From a bacterium (GTDB taxonomy: Bacteria; Krumholzibacteriota; Krumholzibacteriia; LZORAL124-64-63), in NCBI GenBank assembly GCA_018829565.1, contig JAHJTW010000241.1, positions 1 through 35,245 on the forward strand: a DNA stretch of 35,245 bases. Reading direction: 5' to 3'. The notes below the pieces were generated by a model. The model saw only the letters and a list, made by a program, of their open reading frames with translations, searched no databases and was not told the origin of the DNA. This document shows, in pieces, positions 20,051 through 29,920 of the stretch (positions within the stretch are counted from its first letter, which is position 1; each line of letters opens with the position of its first letter). Made by a program: the position numbers and the translations under genes.

Positions 20051-20983
20051 CTACCTGATGAGGGTGATCTTGGTCCTGCCTTTGACCTCCCGGGCCTCCA
20101 GATTGACAAGATATCCGCCGGAGGGAACGGGCCGCCCGGCCTCGTCCCTTCCGTCCCACAGCACCGTGACGGTACCGCCCGGGATACCTGTACCGGTCAT
20201 GGACCTGATAAGCCCACCATCGAGGGAGTAGATGCCGAGCTGGAAGGGCCGCCCCTCCTCGAGGGCGAAGGTGATCCGGGTACGGGGATTGAAGGGATTG
20301 GGGGCCGCCCCCATGCGCAGGGGGACGGACGGAGGACCCGGTGACGAGCTCGCGCCTTCACCGATCCTGATCGAAACCGGTTGCACCTGTACCGGACCAG
20401 CCACCGATCCATCCAGGAAAAACCGTGTGGCCTGGGGCGGATCCTGGGCCAGGCTGATGATGGTGTCCGCATCATCCGGACCACAGCGAAAGCGGAGCCG
20501 GTAAATCGTACCCGGCCCGGTCACGCTCGTCCCCGGACAAAGGAAGCTGAAGTTGATGGTGAGGAAGGCGCTGTCGGGTGCGACCTCGAAGAGATGGAAG
20601 GTCTGGGGACAGGCGGCTTTCAGCAACGATCCCACCTGGTCCCTCAGATCGGATTCGCCGAGGAATTCGAGCTTGCGGGGGTCGAAGGTGACCCGGGCGT
20701 CGAAGGCGTTGAAGGCCGGCCCCTGGGCGGTGACCACCAGATCGACCACCACCGTATCTCCAGGTTGAACCGCAGCGTGGTCCGGAACGACGGCGACCTT
20801 GATCGTATCGGTCTCCAGGACGGCGAACGAGCCGGTCCTGGACGGCCCGGTAGCGTCCGCACCGGAAACGGCGGGTCCTGCCGCAAAAAGGAACAGGATT
20901 GGAGCCATCCCCCGGAACCACAAGGCCATGCGTTGCAGGAGGGGACCGGCGCGGACCCTTCTCGTGTCGAGGGCAGCAGCCAC
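20051..20983 (-). CDS. Secreted cohesin-like protein with C-terminal FlgD-Ig/T9SS-type sorting domain
   Basis: VQPGDTVVVDLVVTAQGPAFNAFDARVTFDPRKLEFLG cohesin-like; C-term NPFNPRTRITFALE...LDGGLIRSM...VLWDGRDEAGRPVPSGGYLVNLEAREVKGRTKITLIR. GTG 20983 with GGAGGTGA SD. Confidence 0.82.
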   Translation of the reverse strand: MAAALDTRRVRAGPLLQRMALWFRGMAPILFLFAAGPAVSGADATGPSRTGSFAVLETDTIKVAVVPDHAAVQPGDTVVVDLVVTAQGPAFNAFDARVTFDPRKLEFLGESDLRDQVGSLLKAACPQTFHLFEVAPDSAFLTINFSFLCPGTSVTGPGTIYRLRFRCGPDDADTIISLAQDPPQATRFFLDGSVAGPVQVQPVSIRIGEGASSSPGPPSVPLRMGAAPNPFNPRTRITFALEEGRPFQLGIYSLDGGLIRSMTGTGIPGGTVTVLWDGRDEAGRPVPSGGYLVNLEAREVKGRTKITLIR

Positions 20984-20988
20984 CGGAA

Positions 20989-21600
20989 TCACCTCCGTTC
21001 GAATTCGGCCTTGATGGATCCCCAGGGGACCCGGGTCTCGGGAACGGGGCAACGGTAATCCACCGTACCGGGGATGCAGGTGAAGGGAATGGGGTCGTTG
21101 GACCCCGTCCGCAATTCACCCTGGATGCAGTCCAGATCACTGATCCCCTGCACCTCTCCCTCGAATTCCAGGACCACGATGGCTCCGGGGCCGACCATGG
21201 AGCAGCCGAGGGTTGCGGCATCCACCATGATGGTGCCGTCGACGGCGCCGGGATTCAGCCAGGTAAAGAAGTGGCTGCAACCGGCACCGGTCATGAGGCT
21301 GCCGGCACCTACCGACCAGGGAGTCAGGATGAGGGGATCATACTGGAGGACCAGGGAGAAGCCGCGCAGGTCCGTCACGGCCGCATCCACCTGCAATTCC
21401 ACGCGGTAGATCATCCCGCAGTCGAAGTTTCCCTCCTGGGGTGAAAAGCTCAGCTCCGCCGCCTGCAGGTCCGCTCCGACCGGGCTGCCCGCCACCACGG
21501 CAAGTACCGCCAGAAGTGCCGGGAAGACCCCGCCCCACGACAGGAACGGTATCCCAGGCCGGAATCGGCGCGCGGTCGTCCGGGAGATTCTATTCGACAT
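20989..21600 (-). CDS. Secreted cohesin-like protein without FlgD domain, ending VPWGSIKAEFERR
   Basis: Hydrophobic N-terminal segment; YRVELQVDAAVTDLRGFSLVLQYDPLILTPWSV cohesin-like pattern. Confidence 0.78.
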   Translation of the reverse strand: MSNRISRTTARRFRPGIPFLSWGGVFPALLAVLAVVAGSPVGADLQAAELSFSPQEGNFDCGMIYRVELQVDAAVTDLRGFSLVLQYDPLILTPWSVGAGSLMTGAGCSHFFTWLNPGAVDGTIMVDAATLGCSMVGPGAIVVLEFEGEVQGISDLDCIQGELRTGSNDPIPFTCIPGTVDYRCPVPETRVPWGSIKAEFERR

Positions 21601-29095: not shown

Positions 29096-29920
29096 TCATT
29101 TGAGGAGGATGCCCCGCCCGGTTCCGGAAGCGGATCCGCACCGCAGGCGGAAGAGGTAGGTCCCGGCGGCGGCCGGAAGGCCCCGGTCGTCGGTGCCGTC
29201 CCAGGGGACCCGGACGGTGCCCGCGGGAGCGTACCCGTCCACCAGCACGCCGAGGCTGCGGCCTGCAACGTCGAAGACCTCGAGCCGGACCGGACCATCC
29301 TGGGGATTGGAAAATTCCAGGAAGGTCCTGGGATTGAATGGGTTGGGCCACAAGCGCAGGTCGAGGGCGTTCTGCCGTCCAGGCAGGTCAGCAGTGCTCA
29401 CGCCGTGCCCCACCCGGATGGTGGTGGGAGGAAGGATGACCTCGGGGTACCAGTCGCCGGCGGTGTTGGAGATGTAGACGCCGGCGGGATCCTCCTCGGT
29501 CACCTTGACGACGACCGGACAGACGCCTTCGGCCTGGGCGACGTAATCCCACACGAAAAGTTCACCCGGGCCGTCCAGGTGCAGATCCGCTCCCATGATG
29601 ATGGCGTACCCGTACCAGGTCCCCAGGGTATCGGCCTCGAAGCCCTGGAACACGAAGTAGCCCGAATCGTCGTACAGGGCGCCTGCCTGGCCGCCCAGGC
29701 CATGAACGATGGTGGAATCATAGGACACCGTGACGATGATGGAGCGGACGTCCACGGTATCGTCGATGCAGATGGCCAGCCTTCCGGTGTCGCCCACGGC
29801 TACGACGGCGTCAGGCGGATCGAACCGCAGGTGAACGGCCGCCGAGGCGGGATCGGCCGCCGACAAGCCGAGCAGAAACGCCGATACCGACGCCAGGACG
29901 ATCACCGGGAAATTTCTCAC
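29096..29920 (-). CDS. Secreted cohesin-like protein with C-terminal FlgD-type sorting domain
   Basis: Signal peptide; VGDTGRLAICIDDTVDVRSIIVTVSYDSTIV; NPFNPRTFLEFSNP...VPWDGTDDRGLPAAAGTYLFRLRCG...GRGILLK. Confidence 0.83.
   Translation of the reverse strand: MRNFPVIVLASVSAFLLGLSAADPASAAVHLRFDPPDAVVAVGDTGRLAICIDDTVDVRSIIVTVSYDSTIVHGLGGQAGALYDDSGYFVFQGFEADTLGTWYGYAIIMGADLHLDGPGELFVWDYVAQAEGVCPVVVKVTEEDPAGVYISNTAGDWYPEVILPPTTIRVGHGVSTADLPGRQNALDLRLWPNPFNPRTFLEFSNPQDGPVRLEVFDVAGRSLGVLVDGYAPAGTVRVPWDGTDDRGLPAAAGTYLFRLRCGSASGTGRGILLK

Follow-up and report, generated by a model that had tools for sequence, protein, structure and literature searches.

Among the C-terminal sorting tags of bacterial exported proteins, LPXTG, PEP-CTERM, MYXO-CTERM and the C-terminal domains (CTDs) of type IX secretion have each led to a dedicated machine. 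Type IX CTDs (type A, PF18962/TIGR04183; type B, PF13585; and type C) are C-terminal addresses found on Sec-exported proteins of many folds, and are domains of roughly 70-100 residues. PEP-CTERM, GlyGly-CTERM, MYXO-CTERM and IPTL-CTERM are short portable C-terminal motifs carried by dozens of exported proteins per genome; in signals of the PEP-CTERM type the motif is followed by a transmembrane helix and then a basic cluster, and a membrane protease reads them. Cohesin and dockerin modules, in turn, are known from cellulosomes and related extracellular proteins.

We analysed a 35,245-nucleotide stretch of DNA (the window) from a Krumholzibacteriota genome of 4.39 Mb in 353 contigs. Three neighbouring genes in the window encode exported proteins, two of which (P0002 and P0003) have FlgD-type tails that belong with the type IX CTDs. 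The third, P0001, ends in a short peptide which we refer to as the WG tag. At about 9-17 residues, the tag is much shorter than a type IX CTD, has no sequence similarity to one, and replaces such domains on homologous bodies; unlike PEP-CTERM-type signals, it ends the protein and is followed by no helix. Cohesin-like domains in all three proteins and a dockerin-like module in P0003 recall cellulosomes, whereas here they occur alongside beta-helix and FlgD-tail proteins, in a phylum that has type IX secretion, and the trio has neither scaffoldin arrays nor glycoside hydrolases. The explanation that best accounts for these features, to which we assign a probability of about 0.72, is that the trio is a cohesin/dockerin surface module in which the WG tag would act as a portable sorting or recognition peptide read by a receptor.

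Gene order and conservation of the trio

P0003 (25888-21686), P0001 (21600-20989) and P0002 (20983-20051) follow one another on the minus strand. The features of the window are as follows.

P0003: 21686-25888, minus strand; large secreted beta-helix protein with a dockerin-like module, a cohesin domain and a FlgD tail; completes the conserved trio
Dockerin-like module of P0003: 22397-22645, minus strand; two loop-helix repeats (profile A2 against the PDB)
Cohesin domain of P0003: 22058-22327, minus strand; Pfam PF00963, 3.4e-7, above cut-off
P0001: 20989-21600, minus strand; 203 aa, with a Sec signal peptide, a cohesin-like domain and a divergent WG C-terminal tag
Cohesin-like body of P0001: 21046-21456, minus strand; six cysteines in three co-varying pairs (orthologue comparison and profile searches)
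C-terminal tag of P0001: 20992-21045, minus strand; VPETRVPWGSIKAEFERR, divergent from the consensus PVPTExSSWGxIKALFR in having E at +6 and two extra residues
Shine-Dalgarno sequence: 20996-20992, minus strand; GGAGG within the final two codons of P0001 and 8 nt upstream of the P0002 GTG
P0002: 20051-20983, minus strand; signal peptide, cohesin-like domain (about 20345-20809) and FlgD/type IX-type tail (about 20054-20302)
P0005: 29096-29920, minus strand; second cohesin-like protein with a FlgD tail, homologous to P0002 (profile A4 match, 6.9e-18, at 29396-29842), with no tagged partner
P0006: 29981-34507, minus strand; second large beta-helix protein with a dockerin-like module and a FlgD tail, adjoining P0005

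A preliminary description of the window had proposed that P0001 and P0002 are a translationally coupled pair, and both reading frames are present on the minus strand in the ORF listing. P0001 ends with CGG AGG TGA (stop at 20991-20989), followed by a 5-nt gap (TTCCG) and a GTG at 20983-20981; the last codons of P0001 are, as described, the Shine-Dalgarno sequence of this downstream start. The longer open frame of P0002 extends to a TTG at 21052, and a start at the in-frame ATG that lies 54 nt downstream of the GTG would give the protein a signal peptide of more usual form, although no Shine-Dalgarno sequence precedes it; the GTG is the favoured, though not proven, start. In six loci of relatives with the same gene order (the window excluded), P0001 and P0002 overlap by 4 nt at one extreme and stand 20 nt apart at the other. 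The closeness of the two genes is conserved, while the exact overlap of Shine-Dalgarno sequence and stop is local to the window.

A match to P0001 is found in 36 of 58 relatives. The proposed pairing is conserved as well: in 10 or more relatives, genes of the P0001 and P0002 types lie close to each other, usually together with a large dockerin/cohesin gene of the P0003 type. Arrangements vary, with P0001 duplicated within a single ORF at two loci (L210 and L218), its cohesin fused to a FlgD-tailed P0003 at another (L214), and the gene divergently oriented from a P0003-like gene at three more (L208, L212 and L213). The view of the trio as a conserved surface module of the cohesin/dockerin kind, with two different C-terminal addresses among its proteins, forms part of the favoured explanation and shares its overall probability. 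Elsewhere in the window, P0005 and P0006 (29096-34507, minus strand) make up a second pair of a large and a cohesin-like protein, trio-like in design and without a WG-tagged partner.

Domains, tails and cysteines of the three proteins

When searched alone with PF00963, P0001 and P0002 scored 11.9 and 17.2 bits, below the Pfam cut-off of 24.1 bits. Profiles built from their orthologues matched cohesins almost exclusively in the PDB (1.3e-7 for P0001 and 1.1e-8 for P0002), and the two profiles matched each other (99.3%, 9.7e-21, by hhalign); both bodies are thus cohesin-like, as had been claimed, by profile comparison. The P0003 cohesin exceeds the Pfam cut-off on its own (31.0 bits). A Pfam search gave no dockerin match in P0003; with profile A2, all six matches in the PDB were dockerins or dockerin-containing cellulosomal chains, though weak (best 3.4e-4), and the cohesin and dockerin assignments of the three proteins derive in part from such weak profile matches. 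AlphaFold, run on P0001 without an alignment, gave a model of pLDDT 41, which is unusable.

The two tails differ, in agreement with the preliminary description. P0002 ends in a FlgD_ig domain (1.6e-7, above the Pfam cut-off), and P0003 matches both FlgD_ig (1.1e-6) and TIGR04183 (29.1 bits against a cut-off of 23) at its C-terminus. A Pfam search found no FlgD_ig in P0001, which ends in VPWGSIKAEFERR.

The two proteins had also been described as sharing a cysteine pattern. The spacings C-x2-F and C-x3-GPG fit P0001, whereas P0002 has C-x3-F and C-x6-GPG; the likeness reflects a common fold, with differing spacings. Among 16 orthologues of P0001, the cysteines of each of the pairs C108/C133, C61/C184 and C158/C175 are almost always present or absent together, and C148 and C172 of P0002 are likewise gained and lost together in its orthologues. 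As the cysteines come and go in pairs within each protein, they look like intramolecular disulfides inside each domain, and a disulfide linking P0001 to P0002, as earlier suggested, is disfavoured. A further conserved cysteine of P0002, C190 (in FRC, about 20483-20485 of the window), is unpaired and occurs only in P0002 orthologues of tight trios (6 of 12).

Distribution and portability of the WG tag

The tail of P0001, WGSIKAEFERR, is a divergent copy (atypical in its EFERR) of a tag with the consensus PVPTExSSWGx[IVL]KA[LM][FY]R-stop, approximately 17 residues long and located at the very end of the protein. Orthologues of P0001 from the same genus end in AWGAVKARYR, AWGSLKALYR and AWGAVKAVYR, and another ends in SWGALKAIYR. 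Orthologues found through homology of the body retain the tag, with its lysine in 16 of 16 and its tryptophan in 14 of 16. The earlier claim that one of the two proteins carries a different signal is thereby strongly supported, and applies more generally than had been proposed, as the P0001 tail belongs to a phylum-wide C-terminal tag.

In the genome that carries the window, a relaxed pattern (WGx[hydrophobic]Kxx[FY], with the codon after it specified in part) gave 31 matches against one for a reversed control, and all but one of the 31 make up the final 9-10 codons of an ORF; the copies end in FR, YR, FK or YK, or in FN or FS plus one residue. A strict pattern, restricted to the form with arginine and stop, occurs in 78 of 80 Krumholzibacteriota genomes (828 matches versus 2 in the control). 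In a scan of 84,980 species genomes we found at least 118 stretches, where our own estimate of chance matches is about four; 117 of the 118 listed are real ORF ends. By the titles of the 80 records listed, the matches come mainly from Ignavibacteria/'Bacteroidetes', KSB1, Zixibacteria, Calditrichota, Eisenbacteria, Krumholzibacteriota and Effluviviaceae MAGs, in a sample of public genomes searched with patterns that favour canonical tags. Copies are many in Krumholzibacteriota and Eisenbacteria, and usually number one per genome in Ignavibacteria, KSB1 and Zixibacteria. In uncultured phyla a genome can encode up to about 70 tagged exported proteins.

Three tag-bearing contigs come from genomes without SprA (L101, Reyranella; L089, Planctomycetota; L123, Puniceicoccales) and may be mis-binned; the tagged protein of the Reyranella contig falls into a cluster with ones from elsewhere among the tagged loci. 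Two further loci (L112 and L139, DYDD01...) lie in genome G089, the MAG 'Fibrobacter sp. IMS_BF', whose SprA match coordinates are identical to those of G008 from the window's family; G089 is probably a mislabelled Krumholzibacteriota genome.

Outside the FnIII family described below, 106 tagged ORFs fell into 60 BLAST clusters. At the loci sampled, the tag ends at least 60 protein bodies that are unrelated to one another. In a logo with one member per cluster, E at position -4 (31/60), V at -7 (32/60) and S or T at -1 (42/60) stand at positions that no search imposed, and L or M at +6 (46/60) was imposed only by the genome-wide scan. The codons of the tag vary freely, which indicates that selection acts on the peptide. 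A strong signal-peptide-like N-terminus is present in 58 of 63 tagged proteins, as judged by a hydropathy heuristic on genes called as ORFs, and most of the others are truncated or mis-started. None of the 106 carries a PNPFNP/FlgD tail, and the genome of the window has about 130 FlgD_ig matches. The WG tag and the FlgD/type IX tails are two parallel kinds of C-terminal label.

The two labels also replace each other on homologous bodies. Cohesin bodies carry the WG tag in P0001 and a FlgD tail in P0002 and at L214, and the members of one mixed cluster of beta-helix-type proteins bear either label. An FnIII module ends in the WG tag in Ignavibacteria and KSB1, and is followed directly by a FlgD/type IX tail in Krumholzibacteriota (four of four readable cases). 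Judged by these comparisons of homologues, the C-terminal label formed by the WG tag is portable and stands where relatives have a type IX domain.

The FnIII protein is itself a conserved mini-protein of about 130-150 aa, and is the one protein to bear the tag in Ignavibacteria, KSB1 and relatives, usually with one match per genome. As a single-copy exported protein it was seen at L098, L161 and about 60 further loci among L091-L205 (Ignavibacteria, KSB1, Zixibacteria and Calditrichota). Its body is about 32% identical and its tail, TWGSIKAMFR, near-invariant, a conservation that the search pattern imposed in part, though not at T and S. Its structural model shows a confident FnIII-like sandwich, and then a separate C-terminal helix (pLDDT about 70-80). 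Its gene neighbours are varied (MATE, SpoIID-like, Maf-like and glycogen synthase-like, by names read from the sequences), and we found no sorting partner among them; nor did any recurrent neighbour suggesting a partner appear beside tagged genes at the tagged loci sampled.

Possible readers of the tag

No model in NCBIfam or Pfam matched the WG tail, with the proviso that HMMER may miss very short motifs, and we found no description of the tag in the open-access literature, a subscription-only or bioRxiv description being possible. By these sources the tag is undescribed so far. We lean, if only slightly, towards WGx[IVL]KA[LM][FY]R-COOH being an undescribed sorting route of the FCB superphylum, which could be a new, minimal class among the type IX signals or else a pathway of its own that relies on a receptor.

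Under the first of these, the tag would form a short class beside types A, B and C, read by SprA or by a shuttle (PorV or PorP/SprF). SprA is present in the genome of the window (G000:C262), in 78 of 78 Krumholzibacteriota genomes and in 34 of 38 other tag-bearing genomes, and C25/PorU-like peptidases in 38 of 38 genomes checked; both are universal in tag-rich genomes. The tag occupies the architectural slot of the FlgD tail, and the terminal residue of either tail is basic, with a second basic residue 4-5 positions before it. Published evidence places much of the signal of a type A CTD at its extreme end: in P. gingivalis, 22 C-terminal residues of a CTD are enough to secrete GFP, and the final 13, which include conserved lysines, are required (PMC10202324). 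However, the tag lacks sequence similarity to the CTD sandwich, and SprA-bearing FCB lineages have one tag each (Ignavibacteria, KSB1 and Zixibacteria) or no match. SprA has a far wider distribution than abundant tags do; because it occurs throughout the FCB group, even in lineages with no tag among the matches listed, its co-occurrence with the tag is weak evidence for a type IX route. We regard a type IX signal as a tentative possibility.

Alternatively, the tag would be a docking peptide for a shared periplasmic or outer-membrane receptor that retains proteins independently of type IX secretion. It is short and fixed at the C-terminus, with W, G and K invariant and the terminal R nearly so; its modelling as a separate helix in the FnIII mini-protein, and its presence on a single protein per genome in some lineages and on many in others, are also consistent with docking. 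Against this, there is no candidate receptor, and no conserved sorting gene adjoins the tagged genes. Docking of this kind is possible, with the odds somewhat against it.

That the tag controls the gene downstream, by arresting ribosomes or by coupling translation, would fit the overlap of the P0001 tag with the Shine-Dalgarno sequence of P0002, but is very unlikely: a terminator-like hairpin lies at most 90 nt downstream of 19 of 63 tagged genes (3.2 expected), which indicates that many tagged genes end their transcript, and the genes beside members of the single-copy FnIII family vary. Processing by exosortase as a PEP-CTERM/IPTL-CTERM relative, suggested by V-P-x-E-x-S-W, which we take to resemble the PEP/IPTL motif loosely, is largely refuted and scarcely credible, as the enzyme (PF09721) is absent from 16 of 16 sampled genomes of the window's tag-rich family, that of the window included, and the protein ends 0-1 residues past WGxxKxx[FY][RKN] (two in P0001), leaving no room for a transmembrane helix. 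An amphipathic-helix membrane anchor was also rejected, the helical moment being no higher than in shuffles.

On the favoured explanation, a surface module with a receptor-read tag, P0003 and P0002 are exported by Sec and then probably cross the outer membrane via the SprA translocon through their FlgD/type IX-type domains; we infer that the FlgD-tailed members use type IX secretion. P0001 is a Sec-exported cohesin whose terminal WG tag is most likely read by a putative periplasmic or outer-membrane receptor, which would sort or dock the tagged protein to a different site of the envelope. Binding between cohesin and dockerin might then link P0001 with the assembly of P0003 and P0002. The tag runs parallel to the type IX tails, and perhaps uses type IX machinery.

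Set beside the sorting tags that have led to dedicated machines, a tag so short and sharply defined on exported proteins of uncultured phyla offers a direct handle, as a peptide for receptor pull-down (PVPTEASSWGSIKALYR) or in a reporter fusion. A profile of the tag would allow many exported proteins of unknown function to be annotated, and the natural tail swaps on homologous bodies make it directly testable whether the two labels are read by the same or by different machines.
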